Of a stretch of 64,000 nt of DNA, positions 12,126 to 45,126 are shown piece by piece. Origin of the DNA: Rodentibacter genomosp. 1. GTDB taxonomy: Bacteria; Pseudomonadota; Gammaproteobacteria; Enterobacterales; Pasteurellaceae. The notes under the pieces are model-generated. The model saw only the letters and a program-made list of their open reading frames with translations. It had not been told where the DNA came from and ran no database searches. Position numbers and translations under genes: made by a program. Position 1 is the stretch's first letter. Each line of letters opens with the position of its first letter. The stretch lies in assembly GCF_001999285.1 (NCBI RefSeq), contig NZ_MLHN01000008.1, positions 1-64,000 on the forward strand, read 5' to 3'.

Positions 12126-12356
12126 ATGGCTAAAAAAGATTGGAGCAGAAAGCGAATTGTGTATGAGCTGCACGAGCGAAATATCACATTGCATTCGCTT
12201 TCTGTGAAATCGGGACTTGCCCCCTCCACGCTAAAAAATGCATTGCGGGTAAGTTATCCGAAAGGGGAAAAGATCATCGCTGAAGCGATTGGCGTGCCTC
12301 CTCAAGAAATTTGGGCAACACGCTATGCGGAACGGGAGAGCCGCTTATGTGGGTAG
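12126..12356 (+). CDS. ner: Ner-type transcriptional regulator
   Basis: A 76-residue helix-turn-helix protein of the Ner/Nlp family (DWSRKRIVYELHERN ... LAPSTLKNALRVSYPKGEKIIAEAIGVPPQEIWATRYA). In Mu, Ner dampens early and repressor transcription after infection. It is the first early gene, behind a GGAG box, and overlaps the start of transposase A by 10 bases. Confidence 0.92.
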   Translation: MAKKDWSRKRIVYELHERNITLHSLSVKSGLAPSTLKNALRVSYPKGEKIIAEAIGVPPQEIWATRYAERESRLCG

Positions 12357-14316
12357 AACTGAAAGATATATTGGGAGTCGGTGGATTACCCAAAACTGTT
12401 GGGGGAATAACTAAAAAAGCTAAATTAGAGAATTGGGAGCGGAGACGAAAAGAAAGTCCAGTTGGAAAAGTATTTGAATACCACCTCCACAGCCTTCCCC
12501 CCGAAACCCAAAAGCAATTAAGGCTTAACGCCGCTTTGGCGGCAATGCCACCGCCTACAACGGCACAACCGATGGATGACCCCGAGCTGATTTATCGGCT
12601 CACCAGTGCCACCGACAAGGCAAGGGAAAAGGCGAAAAACAAAGCAGAAGCCTGTATGCAACTGCAAGCCTTTTTAGACCAAGGGTTCAATTATCAAGAG
12701 GCAGAAGCGGGGGCGGCAACCGCAAAAAACGTGTCGCAAGGTTCTTTAAAAAATTGGTATTACAAAGTGAAAGGCTACCCCGTCCACCTGTGGCAAGCGA
12801 TTTTAGTGTCAGGCTCGGGCAAATCCGCCAAGCCCGGTAAAAAAGCCCACATCACCGAAGAAGCGTGGGACACCTTCCTTGCTGATTATCTCCGCCCTGA
12901 AAAGCCCGATTTACGAGCCAGTTACCGCCGCATTGAGGCAATGGCGAAAGAATACGGCTGGCAGATGGCAAGTTTTAAAACCTTCCAACGTCGCTTAATC
13001 AAAGAAGTGCCATACGAGGTGCTACTGCTTCAGCGAGAGGGCAAAAATGCGGTGGCGAAATTAGTGCCAGCGTTGCAACGCACGGTAAAAGATATTCTCG
13101 CAGGCGAATGGATCAACGGCGACGGTTATCAACACAACGTCTTTGTGAAATGGCACACGGGCGAGATTATCCGCCCAAAAACGTGGTTCTGGCAAGATGT
13201 GCGAACCCGCAAAATTCTTGCTTATCGCACCGCACTTTCGGAAAACACCGACAGCATACGTCACGCCTTAATGGACGTGATATTCCGCTACGGCATACCG
13301 AAAACCATCACGCTGGACAACACCCGAGCCGCAGCCAATAAAGCGATGACAGGCGGCGTAGCAAACCGCTACCGCTTTAAAGAAAACGAACTCGACCCGA
13401 AAGGCATTATGCCGATTTTAGGCATCGAAGTGCATTTCACTAGCGGCTTTATGGCGAAGGACACGGGCAAGCCAAGCCGATTGAACGCGCCTTCGGGCGA
13501 GGCGGCATAGGCGAGAAAGTGGATAAACGCCCCGAACTGTCGGGCTTCTACACGGGCAAAAACGTGCTAGAAAAACCCGACAACTACAACGGCGGTAAGG
13601 CTGGCGTGGAATATGACATCTTTCTGCAAGCCCTTGCAGCAGGCGTGAAAGAGTACAACGAACAACTGGAACGAGACACCGAACTTTGCCGAGGCAAGTT
13701 CAGTTTTGAACAGATTTGGGAACGGGATTACCACCCCACCAATATACGCCAAGCTACGCCAGAGCAGCTGCTGTTGCTGTTCTTGCAAGCGGAAACGGTG
13801 AGCATTAAACGTAACGGGGCATTCACCCTGAAAGCGGCAGGCAAACTGTACGGCTTAACCAACATTTACTGGGAGGAAAGTTTAATCGGCATCACCGATA
13901 AAAAAGTGGTGGCACGGTTCGACCCCGACAACCTACACGGCAATGTGTATGTGTACGACTTAGAAGGACGATACCTTGCCGAAGCGATTTGCCGAGAAGC
14001 GAAAGGCTTTGGCGACACAATCGCTTCTCGCGAGCAAGGCAGATTGTACAAGAAAGTGGTGAAATCGGCACAACAACAAGCCGAAGCCTTGCAGTTGTTA
14101 GACCAACACGAACTGGCAGCCCTCGCACCAAAAGTGGAGGTGCCAGAACCGATTGAAAAACGAGTGAAAGAAGTGCTGATTGAAGAAGAAGTGATCCACC
14201 AAAACCTCCGAATGAAAGTTCACAAAAAAGTGGAAATAGAAGAGGCAGAAGTGGAAGAAATCAGCGAATTTGAACAGGCATTTATGAATGCCGTCGCAAT
14301 GAAACGCAAGATTTAA
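12347..14316 (+). pseudogene. muA: Transposase A (MuA), frameshifted before the third catalytic residue
   Basis: DDE transposase that joins the phage ends to target DNA. From ATG 12347 (GGGAG box upstream) it shows the Mu-type N-terminal DNA-binding domain, then the integrase core with Asp259 (INGDGYQ) and Asp324 (ITLDNTR). The first frame stops at 13510 after 387 residues. The -1 frame opens at 13444 and continues GHGQAKPIERAFGRGGIG to 14316. Glu of AKPIER would be residue about 380. Spacings 65 and 56 match MuA Asp269-Asp336-Glu392, and the rejoined length of about 656 residues matches Mu A. One missing A in GCGAAGG (13454-13460) explains the shift. No slippery heptamer is present, so I treat it as a disabling mutation or a sequencing error. 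Confidence 0.9.
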
Positions 14317-40535: not shown

Positions 40536-42968
40536 ATGTACGCATTAGACAATAAATCGGGCATTGAACAGATGCCTGAAATCCCTGAAGTATTTAGTAA
40601 AAATCCACTTTGGTTTACCGAAGGACGTGATGGTAACGCCCCAAGTTACCCAGGTGCGCACTGGTTTAACATTGTGCAAGCCGAGCTTTTGAATGTATTG
40701 AAAGAAGCAGGCATTGAGCCAGAGAAAGCCGATTTAACCCAGTTGGCACAAGCGTTTCGTGTTATGGCAGGTCAAGTGGACTCTATCGCCGCTTTGCGTG
40801 AATTTGAGCCCGTGCGTGATCGTCAGATGGTGTACGTCAAAGGCTACTACGCCAACAGCACCAAAGGCGGAGGGTATTTTGTGGCGGATTTGACCGATAC
40901 GGCGAGTGCGGATAATGGCGGGACGGTGATTGTGACGGCAAACGGTAACCGCTGGAAACGTATTCTTGGACACACCTTAGGCTTAGAACAATTCGGTGCA
41001 ATCGGAGATGGAGAGTCAGACGACACGCAAGCCATCAAAAACGCTTTGCAAGCTGCATATGATACAGGTTGTTTATTGCATATAAGTAACAACACTTATC
41101 TGATTTCGGAATCTTTAGAATTTAAACGTCATTTTTCGATTGCAACAAGCGTTGTTTTTAAAGCGCCTGAAAATCCACGAGATGTGGCAGCTAGTGTCAA
41201 TTTATATTTTTCTCGCCCTTGTCATCTTGAGCGAGTACGATTTATTTACGTCAATGTCTATTTATCTGGACAAGGGACAGAAGATTTAATTCATCACCCA
41301 ACCATTGTTAAAATGTGTACGTTTAACGATAGTAAGTTGGTAATTGGTTCAGAGCATTCTATTACGCAACATTATGAAATTGCTTTCAACCATTTCAATA
41401 CAACTAAAAGCCGTTTCTTTGATGCGATTGCTGTAAAAAACTGTAACCACGTCAAAATTGTACACAATAACATTCAAGAGTATGGTACGGGTATTTTTAT
41501 TCGTCCGACACGCTCATTTGCGGCACAACATATCAAAATTGAAAATAATGCCATTCAGTCAGTAATGCGCCCGATTTACTTGGTCGGCACATCAATGCAC
41601 CGCTTAGCAAATGTATCAGTGGTTGGCAATACCGTCACCCGTAGCTTGCGAGATAAAACTGCCGCTGTACAGGCACTCTATGTTTCTTATTGCTGTGGCT
41701 TGTATGTTGAGCGCAACACGCTTACTTCATTTGGTGATGTCATTAAAATTGATGCCTGCATTGACTCAGTCATCACTCAAAATAAAACTCAATGTTTAGA
41801 TATTTATGCAGGCATTCGGGTGTTAGGTTGTGTTGCGACTCGTATTTTGGCTAACACATTCTATAACTGGGAGCCATTATCCTATGGTGTGTTGGTGCTG
41901 GATAACAAAACCAATACAAGCGTTAGAAAAAACCTCTATGGTTCTTATGATTTAACGGTGCGGGACAATTTTTTCTATGTAAATAATCGTGGGTTAAAAA
42001 TCGAAAACACAACACTTGCAGATATTAAAAACAACAAGTTTTATGCGTTAAAAACGCCTGATGCTGATGCACGATTACTAACTTTTTCCAAAAGTGCCAC
42101 GTTCTGCAATGAATCAGACAATTTATTTTTTGCACCTGACGGCACAGCTTTAAGATACACCAAAACGTTATCCGCTGGCACAGTACACGCAACAACCACT
42201 AAAAAAACGACTATCTCCGAGCCTATTATTACTGAGTCAGATGTGGAATTAAATAGGGCAAAAAGCTATGTGGTGACGTTTGAATTAGGACACGTCACAG
42301 ATTTAAAACAACACGCGGGGGCATTCAAAACGATGTCTCAATGGATGCAAGGTAGCTCAGCTGCTCTTGCTTTCAACGCCTCGGCGTGGAATACCTCCAC
42401 AAGAAAAACCGCCGATATTGTGGTTGATGGTTTTATTAATGATACCTATGGCATTGAGAATGTATGGTGGGCGAAATCTTGCTTATTTATAGATAAATTT
42501 AACGTGCTTTCTTGCCGTGATTTTACTGCGAATACCGCAGCAAGCGTGCCTTTTATGTTAGGCACTGCGGCGATGGCTGAAATGGCGTGGCAAACGGCGG
42601 TTTTCCGCTCTCCGCTGATTGTTGATGGGAATTTATACGACCCACTTAGCACAGGCATTATCAGCCAAAATGGTTACGAGCGGGATATTTCTGCACGCAC
42701 GGCATTAGGACAAAAAGAGGACGGCACTTATGTGTTATTAGTGGTTGATGGCAGAACAGGCGAACGTGGCTGCACAATGAAGCAAGCCGCGGAAAAGCTA
42801 TTAAGACTAGATTGCGTAAATGCATTTAACCTTGATGGTGGCGGTTCCGTAACGCTTTGGTATAAAGGGCAAATTATCAACGCACCAAGTGATGATAAGG
42901 GCGAGCGAGAAGTGCCATCAATCTTTTATGTACAAGGCGAAACTCAAGGAGAAGCAAATGTACTTTGA
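40536..42968 (+). CDS. Tailspike: beta-helix plus phosphodiester-glycosidase-like C-terminus
   Basis: 810 residues replacing the Mu fibre gene S. Residues 1-100 attach to the tail (PEVFSKNPLWFTEGRDGNAP). From about 150 a pectate-lyase-like right-handed beta-helix begins (FGAIGDGESDDTQAIKNAL) and continues with N-rich turns to about 530. From about 590 a NAGPA/DUF2233-type domain follows: ARTALGQKEDGTYVLLVVDGR near 719-737, then NLDGGGSVTLWY near 764-775 and GEREVPSIFYV. Such domains cleave phosphodiester-linked sugars, so a capsule or teichoic-like glycan is a likely receptor. The helix DNA is AT-rich, suggesting exchange. Confidence 0.88.
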   Translation: MYALDNKSGIEQMPEIPEVFSKNPLWFTEGRDGNAPSYPGAHWFNIVQAELLNVLKEAGIEPEKADLTQLAQAFRVMAGQVDSIAALREFEPVRDRQMVYVKGYYANSTKGGGYFVADLTDTASADNGGTVIVTANGNRWKRILGHTLGLEQFGAIGDGESDDTQAIKNALQAAYDTGCLLHISNNTYLISESLEFKRHFSIATSVVFKAPENPRDVAASVNLYFSRPCHLERVRFIYVNVYLSGQGTEDLIHHPTIVKMCTFNDSKLVIGSEHSITQHYEIAFNHFNTTKSRFFDAIAVKNCNHVKIVHNNIQEYGTGIFIRPTRSFAAQHIKIENNAIQSVMRPIYLVGTSMHRLANVSVVGNTVTRSLRDKTAAVQALYVSYCCGLYVERNTLTSFGDVIKIDACIDSVITQNKTQCLDIYAGIRVLGCVATRILANTFYNWEPLSYGVLVLDNKTNTSVRKNLYGSYDLTVRDNFFYVNNRGLKIENTTLADIKNNKFYALKTPDADARLLTFSKSATFCNESDNLFFAPDGTALRYTKTLSAGTVHATTTKKTTISEPIITESDVELNRAKSYVVTFELGHVTDLKQHAGAFKTMSQWMQGSSAALAFNASAWNTSTRKTADIVVDGFINDTYGIENVWWAKSCLFIDKFNVLSCRDFTANTAASVPFMLGTAAMAEMAWQTAVFRSPLIVDGNLYDPLSTGIISQNGYERDISARTALGQKEDGTYVLLVVDGRTGERGCTMKQAAEKLLRLDCVNAFNLDGGGSVTLWYKGQIINAPSDDKGEREVPSIFYVQGETQGEANVL

Positions 42969-43972: not shown

Positions 43973-44105
43973 AAGACGGCGATAATAACGGCACGGCAAT
44001 GCGCGTTATTACCAGCTACGCAGAACATGCCTGCATATAGCCATACGCCGCCTACCTTGCGCAAGGCGGGCGGATTGTAACAAATCTTTTAATTATGGAG
44101 AATAT
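43973..44105. other. Leader with two hairpins before com
   Basis: Stem TAATAACG / CGTTATTA (43983-43990, 44004-44011) and a stronger stem CCGCC-TA-CCTT/AAGG-CG-GGCGG (44048-44073). No T-run. In Mu the com-mom transcript is regulated just here. No gene seen. Confidence 0.55.
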
Positions 44106-44225
44106 ATGCAGTCAATTAAAACAATCCGTTGCACATTTTGTAACAAATTATTGGCGAAAGTGGGTACAGTTGTTTATTTAGAAATCAAATGCCCACGTTG
44201 CAAAGTCATTAACTTTACTAAATAA
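44106..44225 (+). CDS. com: Com-like zinc-finger translational regulator
   Basis: 39 residues: MQSIKTIRCTFCNKLLAKVG followed by EIKCPRCKVINFTK. Cys9, Cys12, Cys29 and Cys32 form the zinc site of Mu Com, an RNA-binding protein that opens the mom start region. GGAG lies before the ATG. The downstream gene is an adenine methylase instead of mom. Confidence 0.85.
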   Translation: MQSIKTIRCTFCNKLLAKVGTVVYLEIKCPRCKVINFTK

Positions 44226-44233
44226 CTTTATTT

Positions 44234-44265
44234 GAGTGTCAGAATACCTTGAGTATCAGAACGCC
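44234..44265 (+). repeat. 15-base direct repeat in the methylase leader
   Basis: GAGTGTCAGAATACC (44234-44248) and GAGTATCAGAACGCC (44251-44265), 12 of 15 bases the same, starts 17 bases apart. It directly precedes the start-codon hairpin. Candidate Com binding sites in RNA. Confidence 0.6.
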
Positions 44266-44285
44266 ATAGAAGGAAAAACTATGGC
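44263..44285 (+). promoter_or_regulatory. Start-codon hairpin of the methylase gene
   Basis: GCCATAG (44263-44269) pairs exactly with CTATGGC (44279-44285). The ATG (44281-44283) is in the 3' arm and the ribosome site AAGGA (44270-44274) is in the loop AAGGAAAAA. This is the layout of the Mu mom translation-inhibitor stem. Confidence 0.75.
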
Positions 44286-45126
44286 AAACAAAAAAACTTT
44301 TAAACAAGCCCCGCTACCGTTTATCGGGCAAAAAAGAATGTTTTTGAAACACGTGGAAATTGTGTTAAACAAACACATTGATGGAGAAGGTGAAGGTTGG
44401 ACGATTGTGGACGTATTTGGTGGCAGTGGTTTATTAAGCCATACAGCCAAACAACTAAAGCCAAAAGCAACTGTAATTTATAACGATTTTGATGGCTACA
44501 CCGAGCGATTAAATCACATTGACGACATCAACCGATTACGCCAAATTATCTTCAATTACTTACACGGTATTATACCAAAAAATGGACGATTAAGCAAAGA
44601 AATTAAAGCGGAAATCATCAATAAAATCAATAATTTCAATGGTTATAAAGACCTAAACTGTTTAGCTTCTTGGTTATTATTTTCTGGTCAGCAAGTTGGC
44701 AGTGTTGAGGCGTTATTTGCCAAAGATTTTTGGAATTGTGTGCGTCAAAGCGATTACCCAACGGCTGAGGGCTATTTAGATGGTATTGAAGTTATAAGTG
44801 AGTCGTTCCACAAGCTAATCCCACGCTATCAAAATCAAGAAAAGGTATTATTACTACTTGATCCGCCTTACTTATGTACGCGTCAAGAGAGTTATAAACA
44901 AGCTACTTACTTTGATTTGATTGATTTTCTACGCTTAATCAATCTAACCAAACCTCCTTATATCTTCTTCAGCAGCACGAAAAGCGAATTTATCCGATAT
45001 TTGAACTATATGCAGGAGAGTAAAATCAATAACTGGGAGACATTTGAGGGTTACGAGCGAATTACGGTTAAAGCATCTACTTCCAAAGATGGGGTTTATG
45101 AGGATAATATGATTTATAAATTCTAA
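44281..45126 (+). CDS. Dam-type N6-adenine DNA methyltransferase
   Basis: 281 residues. Motif X PLPFIGQKRMF near 12-22, S-adenosylmethionine motif DVFGGSG at 44-50, and catalytic DPPY at 194-197 (LLLDPPYLCT), the D12-class order. It stands where Mu has mom and follows com. It may protect phage DNA against host restriction; the recognition site cannot be read from the sequence. The DNA is AT-rich relative to the structural genes. Confidence 0.88.
   Translation: MANKKTFKQAPLPFIGQKRMFLKHVEIVLNKHIDGEGEGWTIVDVFGGSGLLSHTAKQLKPKATVIYNDFDGYTERLNHIDDINRLRQIIFNYLHGIIPKNGRLSKEIKAEIINKINNFNGYKDLNCLASWLLFSGQQVGSVEALFAKDFWNCVRQSDYPTAEGYLDGIEVISESFHKLIPRYQNQEKVLLLLDPPYLCTRQESYKQATYFDLIDFLRLINLTKPPYIFFSSTKSEFIRYLNYMQESKINNWETFEGYERITVKASTSKDGVYEDNMIYKF

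Follow-up and report, generated by a model that had tools for sequence, protein, structure and literature searches.

The pairing of a com gene with a gene for a D12-class DNA methylase at the right end of a Mu-like prophage raises the question of whether, and through which RNA element, the small Com protein might control translation of the enzyme. The window (the whole 64,000-nucleotide stretch of DNA analysed here) is part of a contig of 214,532 bases in a Pasteurellaceae genome of 2.35 Mb, and its prophage carries repressor, MuA- and MuB-type transposition, terminase, head, sheath, baseplate and tail fibre genes. The transposase may be split, as two open reading frames in the window match different parts of one MuA-type transposase family, 12311-13510 the front and 13519-14316 the back. 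The tail fibre gene (40536-42968) specifies a beta-helix and a C-terminal phosphodiester glycosidase domain (NAGPA, PF09992, 101 bits).

The com gene

The com gene (44106-44225, + strand) encodes a 39-amino-acid CCCC zinc-ribbon protein that is predicted to bind RNA (PF10122; phrog_6417 'translational regulator'). Its score of 38.5 bits against PF10122, with a cut-off of 22.9, bore out the initial annotation, which had described a 39-residue Com-like zinc finger. The protein is identical at 38 of 39 residues to a Com of Haemophilus sputorum (L010/L075), which may not be the exact protein used in PMC6483171. Matches to com (E up to 0.001) were found at 57 places in 39 of 140 Pasteurellaceae genomes, with 38 genomes over the curated cut-off. 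In the other families of the class Com was rare: of 369 genomes of the class, 5 had it, that of the window included.

A second com of the same genome (G000:C2:1805-1906, L002) likewise has a box, and its partner is a C5-like methylase. Upstream of the com gene of the window, at 44047-44073, lies a hairpin with a variable palindromic tip. Similar hairpins recur in many of 38 distinct upstream regions of com in Pasteurellaceae, and may belong to the leader or promoter of com.

Four heptamers form two nested helices

Between com and the methylase gene, the initial annotation had noted a 15-base direct repeat, and the repeat is indeed present as GAGTGTCAGAATACC (44234-44248) and GAGTATCAGAACGCC (44251-44265), 15 nt with three differences. 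It is also conserved and co-varying in relatives, and all three differences fall on paired positions of the co-varying structure. The sequence comparison indicates that this 'direct repeat' is better read as four heptamers forming nested helices (1 with 4, 2 with 3) that would display C-N-GA loops. We refer to this element as the Com box (44234-44265, + strand). It consists of H1 (44234-44240, GAGTGTC), H2 (44242-44248, GAATACC), H3 (44251-44257, GAGTATC) and H4 (44259-44265, GAACGCC), separated by A, TT and A, and the heptamer consensus is GARYRYC. Positions 3-6 of heptamer 2 pair with positions 3-6 of heptamer 3 to form the inner helix P2 (44244-44256, + strand; 44244-44247 with 44253-44256), and heptamers 1 and 4 pair likewise in the outer helix P1 (44236-44264, + strand; 44236-44239 with 44261-44264). 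P2 closes a C-UU-GA loop between 4-bp arms upstream of the methylase gene, and thus has the form of a C(N)2-3GA target hairpin.

The 54 com leaders were reduced to 45 distinct ones. A regular expression recognised the four-heptamer array in 43 of these (34 D12, 9 C5-like); the pairing counts exclude L054 and L006, the latter being one letter away from the pattern. Since leaders and boxes are related by descent, shuffle figures are not probabilities: P1 was paired in 171 of 172 cells against a shuffle maximum of 161, and P2 in 169 of 172 against a maximum of 148. Wrong heptamer pairings gave 119 (3-4), 113 (2-4) and 157 (1-2) paired cells. The alternative H1-H3 pairing reached 169 of 172 cells, mostly through G-U, a value attained by 2 of 1000 shuffles. 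The second pair of P1 is itself mostly U-G (36 of 43 leaders).

We then aligned 35 distinct boxes with a 2-nt spacer, 34 of them from Pasteurellaceae leaders and one from the Haemophilus parasuis phage SuMu. RNAalifold recovered P1 and P2 unprompted, together with two nearly invariant pairs. In these 35 boxes 98.6% of cells were paired and seven of the eight pairs showed two-sided changes. Two-sided-change cells numbered 62 against 19.7 in shuffles, and the covariation score was 0.676 against at most 0.263 in slid versions. At gathering scores, Rfam gave no match within the window.

This structure can be set beside published work on Com. The available text of PMC6483171 reports RNA binding by Com in the form of a selection and a footprint motif. 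There, in vitro selection with Haemophilus sputorum Com yielded two GAG(N)2CC copies around a 3-4 nt stem, and CC(N)2-3GAG within a hairpin loop is proposed as the Com site; the main text never uses the word 'methyltransferase'. The P2 loop of the window matches the CC(N)2-3GAG motif as given in that text. The paired heptamers are therefore, judging from this match and the co-variation, likely to be the Com-binding element, and the box would put the published in vitro motif into a natural context. A 32-nt element with such strong compensatory change also provides a searchable definition of a Com target.

The box occurs with com

A covariance model (R1) was built from the 35 boxes, those of the window and of SuMu included. 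On the window it identified the com leader at 51.7 bits (E 4.1e-12), with the next best match, located within a tail-region gene, at 14.5 bits; the weak additional matches were regarded as chance. Over the 140 Pasteurellaceae genomes, R1 found 59 boxes in 37 genomes, all within the 39 that bear com, and no box in any of the 101 com-less genomes. A box was present within 200 nt of 54 of the 57 com genes, while R1 found none at the remaining three (L028, L037 and L054), and five boxes lay away from any com. In non-Pasteurellaceae phages R1 found no box above chance, which limits the evidence for the two-tier form to Pasteurellaceae.

IMG/VR was scanned with an IUPAC pattern that imposes purine/pyrimidine classes and not pairing, giving 58 stretches with 59 boxes in a set that partly overlaps the genome set. 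Of these boxes 45 stood behind com (37 with D12 partners, 6 with C5-like partners, 2 too near a fragment end to classify), 5 before AntA genes and 9 in other settings. The 28 distinct boxes formed 222 of 224 pairs, against a shuffle maximum of 200. Box-like arrays antisense to neighbouring genes were seen in four records (L240, L250, L252 and L254), and L250 has a strong com elsewhere (52.9 bits).

A stem over the methylase start codon

A perfect 7-bp stem with the ribosome site in its loop and the ATG in its 3' arm had also been proposed from the sequence, and our analysis agrees. This stem, P3 (44263-44285, + strand; 44263-44269 with 44279-44285, GCCATAG/CTATGGC), has a 9-nt loop containing AGGA (44271-44274, + strand), the likely ribosome-binding site, and its 3' arm holds the methylase ATG (44281-44283), which is thus sequestered. 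A 7-bp stem with a Shine-Dalgarno-like loop occurs at 2 of the 1951 ATGs of the window (both strands), the com-leader ATG included. In the 43 leaders 290 of 344 P3 cells were paired, compared to 72-132 (of 323-344) in slid versions, and the sixth pair co-varies, being G-C in 20 and A-U in 18 leaders. The check for conservation and compensatory change that had been suggested for stem and repeat thus came out positively in Pasteurellaceae relatives, as both are conserved and both co-vary.

A canonical P3 of 5 bp or more was absent in five of the 43 leaders. One of these is L036, where an extra heptamer causes the register used to miss the stem. In L019, L041, L047 and L053, which have no canonical P3, the 5' flank pairs with post-start codons over 6-7 bp, and L048 combines a short P3 with a helix between 5' flank and codons. 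A further helix, P0, in which the 5' flank pairs with codons 2-5, was considered as a general element and rejected as only optional: it reaches 8-9 bp in 8 of 43 leaders and 4 bp at best in the window, and its mean was attained by 2 of 500 shuffles. In three of four Moraxella leaders tested (L113, L115 and L117, not L114), a Com heptamer forms 9-10 bp with the start region, which would make Com binding and the lock mutually exclusive.

A proposed translational switch

The box and the start-codon stem have two nucleotides in common (44263-44264): H4 is shared, and the last two P1 pairs would use two bases of the P3 foot. A box held in its folded form by Com would for this reason weaken P3 and free the ribosome site. 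We consider it highly probable that the leader is a translational ON-switch, in which Com binds the folded box before the methylase gene and opens the start-codon hairpin. When Com is absent, P3 would hide the Shine-Dalgarno sequence and the AUG of the methylase; once made from the gene just upstream, Com would bind the C-N-GA loops displayed by the four heptamers. From sequence comparison we infer that Com binds the leader of the window, that it activates, that P1 and P3 compete and that the switch acts late.

The minimum-energy fold of the leader (-15.0 kcal/mol, z -2.47; 4 of 200 shuffles equally good) contains P3 and lacks P1 and P2 as drawn, and reliance on it as a guide to the structure was rejected on this ground. 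Predicted energies in the window were -9.5 kcal/mol for P3, -2.8 for P3 minus the pairs shared with P1, and a weak -3.3 for P1 plus P2; the corresponding medians of 38 leaders were -10.6, -4.6 and -5.3 kcal/mol. P3 alone, at its predicted -9.5 kcal/mol, would be enough to lower translation, and the hairpin could then be a stand-alone brake or thermosensor, with Com acting elsewhere or nowhere. This is highly improbable given that the box is found at 54 of 57 com genes and in 0 of 101 com-less genomes, that it fits the motif obtained by selection with a Com of this kind, and that it overlaps P3.

Partner genes are exchanged at the start codon

If Com opens the start-codon hairpin as proposed, which genes stand behind it? 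At the 57 com loci the partner had a D12 signature in 41 cases and a C5-like signature in 13, L030 has a D12 partner without an ATG, and no partner was seen at two loci (L028 and L037). An early label of ours for the second partner type, 'HIA', was wrong: it is C5-methylase-like, with 28.2 bits against PF00145 (cut-off 22), and 26.5 bits against TIGR00675, far under the cut-off of 100.65. Two com genes of one Avibacterium paragallinarum genome are identical over 120 nt and have leaders that match at all but 1 of 66 nt. The enzymes that follow are unrelated (87 mismatches in 120), which places the join at the start codon. Tandem com-box cassettes in one prophage were seen at L018 and L041 (G048), where the first partner is C5-like and the second is a D12 gene with an apparently broken frame.

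Beyond the family, 28 phage records had a Com match, and ten of these were examined in addition to Mu. The partner is Mom in PAN70, Baskent_P5 and, by annotation, Mu; a D12 enzyme in SuMu, Mcat2, B3 and Phipami28; and an N4/N6 methylase in Chuche, Smp131 and PhAER-1. In DVM-2008 the gene after com has no Pfam match. A set of 21 loci was made up of these eleven phages (SuMu being of Pasteurellaceae) and ten chromosomal loci from outside the family. At 19 of the 21 a C-N2/3-GA hairpin with a 4-bp stem was found within 120 nt of the partner, against 1.2 expected from shuffles, and eight loci had two such hairpins. Chuche and Alysiella L106 had none within this distance. Outside the 21, the hairpin is present at the com-bearing loci L120 (upstream the same as L119) and L132, and was not found at the com-less L108. 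It had been suggested that the regulatory half of the com-mom switch was kept while the enzyme was swapped. The sequences are well in line with this suggestion, in that the start-codon hairpin of the window precedes an enzyme unrelated to Mom and the box stands before unrelated enzymes. Phages appear to retain the switch while exchanging the enzyme.

The methylase and its likely specificity

The partner gene of the window (44281-45126, + strand) encodes a predicted D12-class N6-adenine DNA methylase of 281 amino acids, with 24.9 bits against PF02086 (cut-off 22) and both the FGGSG and DPPY motifs. Among 30 aligned relatives FGGSG is found in 29, DPPY in 29 and YNDFDGY in 30, and the window protein has all three. 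The solved folds nearest to its AF2 model (mean pLDDT 89.8) are those of E. coli Dam and DpnM (TM about 0.5). The NCBIfam dam model TIGR00571 gave no match to the window protein at E up to 0.01, and phmmer against PDB sequences returned no relative, only one chance match (E 0.82). The earlier label 'Dam-type' is accordingly right as a description of the fold, not of a demonstrated specificity.

The enzyme is 68% identical to the com-linked D12 protein of H. aegyptius NCTC8502, which, judging from the history of the strain, is probably Hia5. Hia5 is a laboratory tool; together with Hin1523 and NMA1821 it is reportedly a non-specific adenine methylase encoded at the mom position, in work said to have been done by Drozdz in 2012. 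The com-linked HI1523 of FluMu belongs to the same reportedly non-specific set. This assignment, like the missing NCBIfam dam match, argues against a GATC (Dam-like) enzyme whose timing would protect SeqA and mismatch-repair signals, a rationale offered by the initial annotation and favoured by E. coli Dam and DpnM being the nearest solved folds. The accessible part of PMC4996451 has evidence on both sides: the cloned Bibersteinia trehalosi group G enzyme, described as highly similar to Hia5, methylates practically every adenine, and a separate B. trehalosi prophage enzyme (group H), which may be of another family, methylates GATC plus off-target sites. Because relatives are reported there as non-specific adenine methylases, the Dam/SeqA/mismatch-repair argument is left unsupported and protection from restriction becomes the likelier role; we hold a GATC enzyme to be unlikely. 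Our best guess from sequence relationships is a broad-specificity, tightly silenced anti-restriction adenine methylase, which would shield phage DNA from restriction and be off in the lysogen.

We next considered how relatives of this enzyme are controlled. D12 relatives were found at 69 loci, 64 of which were examined (L116, L118, L124, L125 and L137 were left out). A four-heptamer box was present at 24 of the 64, including L123, where com has its first cysteine changed; L132, a loose expression match, lacks such pairing and was not counted as a 25th. Eleven further loci have com with another leader form, and L117 has a Com hairpin and no com by the expression used. Seven D12 genes (L076 and L100-L105) have no box of their own and start at or within the end of the C5-like gene that follows com. 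At nine com-less loci (L070, L072, L077, L081, L083, L084, L087, L088 and L112) the 5' end of the D12 gene carries 5 to 23 tetranucleotide repeats, AAGC/CAAG or CAAA; L077 begins where its contig ends. Another nine are com-less loci of Bacteroidota, where an apparent match at L134 is a long unrelated frame, and for the last three (L091, L108 and L135) no control element was detected. The repeats in com-less genes suggest phase variation instead of Com control. According to the available text of PMC4996451, a Hia5-like prophage enzyme is not expressed in its native host, and CAAG repeats lie close to its start. Promiscuous methylases appear to need tight silencing in the lysogen, by Com in some prophages and by tetranucleotide repeats in others.

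Com boxes before AntA antirepressor genes

Four of the boxes distant from com (L168, L169, L170 and L172, with R1 scores of 47.8, 47.0, 46.9 and 32.8 bits) lie at 1501-1532 in box orientation, just upstream of an sRNA-Xcc1-like RNA (RF02221). The sRNA-Xcc1 match is over the gathering score in three of the four, L168 scoring 49.4 against 53 bits. An AntA gene follows, confirmed by Pfam in L168 and L172, and the proteins of L169 and L170 are alike by eye. The L172 box has different stem letters with the pairing kept. Boxed AntA cassettes lie on the same prophage and strand as com in G064 (28 kb away) and G048 (18 kb away), and both boxes occur together with com in one IMG/VR record. As sRNA-Xcc1 occurs in 69 of the 140 genomes, most such leaders are without a Com box. 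Of five further sRNA-Xcc1/AntA cassettes near com, L209 has a single Com hairpin and L207, L208, L210 and L211 have none.

Several additional boxes were observed. In the five IMG/VR AntA leaders (L229, L231, L239, L258 and L263), as in the four above, the box lies next to sRNA-Xcc1 and forms the tip of a longer stem; L231 is probably the same as L169, and L239 the same as L168. No com or D12 gene was found on L229 and L258 (35 and 37 kb), which may be fragments, and com is absent from the short records L231 and L263. The fifth com-distant box (L171) follows a gene resembling a capsid gene by eye, and no gene start lies behind it. Four-heptamer boxes before prohead-like genes (by eye) were seen in L224 (reverse complement; 1222-1253) and L221 (1194-1225). 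A zinc-ribbon frame lies just upstream of both, scoring 21.1 bits against PF10122 in L224 (cut-off 22.9) and 13.7 in L221, and the L224 protein has no relative but itself among the viral contigs. Heptamer 4 of L224 doubles as the 5' arm of an apparent intrinsic terminator, hinting at antitermination.

The AntA boxes, about 200 nt from the start codon, and the metagenomic record in which H4 is the 5' arm of an apparent terminator, could be taken to mean that the heptamers act on DNA or transcription, as an operator or attenuator, and not as a translational switch. We judge this very unlikely, since the changes preserve RNA pairing, G-U included, since the box at methylases has a fixed position beside the AUG stem, and since RNA binding by Com is reported in the available text of PMC6483171.

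With the translational switch retained at the methylase genes, the AntA boxes raise the possibility, which we put forward tentatively and as somewhat less than an even chance, that a small RNA regulon centres on Com, whose portable box would control spliced-in DNA-modifying genes and AntA leaders. This reading covers D12- and C5-type enzymes in Pasteurellaceae and, elsewhere, Mom and N4/N6 enzymes that follow single or tandem Com hairpins. Within one prophage a single late zinc-finger protein would then coordinate DNA modification and antirepression, through translation control at the modification gene and possibly leader refolding or antitermination at AntA. The AntA leaders make such a wider role of Com directly testable.

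Comparison with known systems

To our knowledge, com-mom is known essentially from one phage. Com beside a D12 adenine methylase is already known from FluMu and SuMu, and the replacement of mom is thus prior knowledge. The two-tier co-varying Com box, the partner exchange at the start codon and the AntA placement appear to be new, as apparently are the com-less relatives with tetranucleotide repeats instead. The literature searched, with most subscription papers outside reach, did not describe a Com box in front of D12 or AntA genes, and the sources consulted gave no RNA structure for the com-D12 pair of FluMu or SuMu.

In the accessible text of PMC3877243, HI1522.1 of FluMu is Com and HI1523 a D12 methylase. 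The HI1522.1-HI1523 pair and the pair of SuMu share with the window the order of com followed by a D12 adenine methylase gene; the SuMu box scored 51.2 bits with R1, of which it is one of the 35 building sequences. Nothing essential separates these pairs from the window, which is another member of the group. A Mannheimia Mu-like phage is described in the available part of PMC4553209 as being without a typical com-mom module. The window enzyme resembles Hia5, Hin1523 and NMA1821 in being a prophage enzyme, and it shares the 68% identity noted above with the com-linked enzyme of H. aegyptius NCTC8502.

The likeness to com-mom of Mu, as far as the accessible text of PMC6483171 describes it, lies in the Com zinc finger, in a C-N3-GA hairpin just upstream of the start-codon stem, and in a DNA-modifying target; the Com hairpin of Mu mom is the counterpart of P2. 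The two systems differ in three respects: the enzyme of the window is a D12 protein (PF02086) and not Mom (PF25680), its box forms two nested helices whereas one hairpin is described for Mu, and its com gene ends before the box whereas com of Mu overlaps the target gene.
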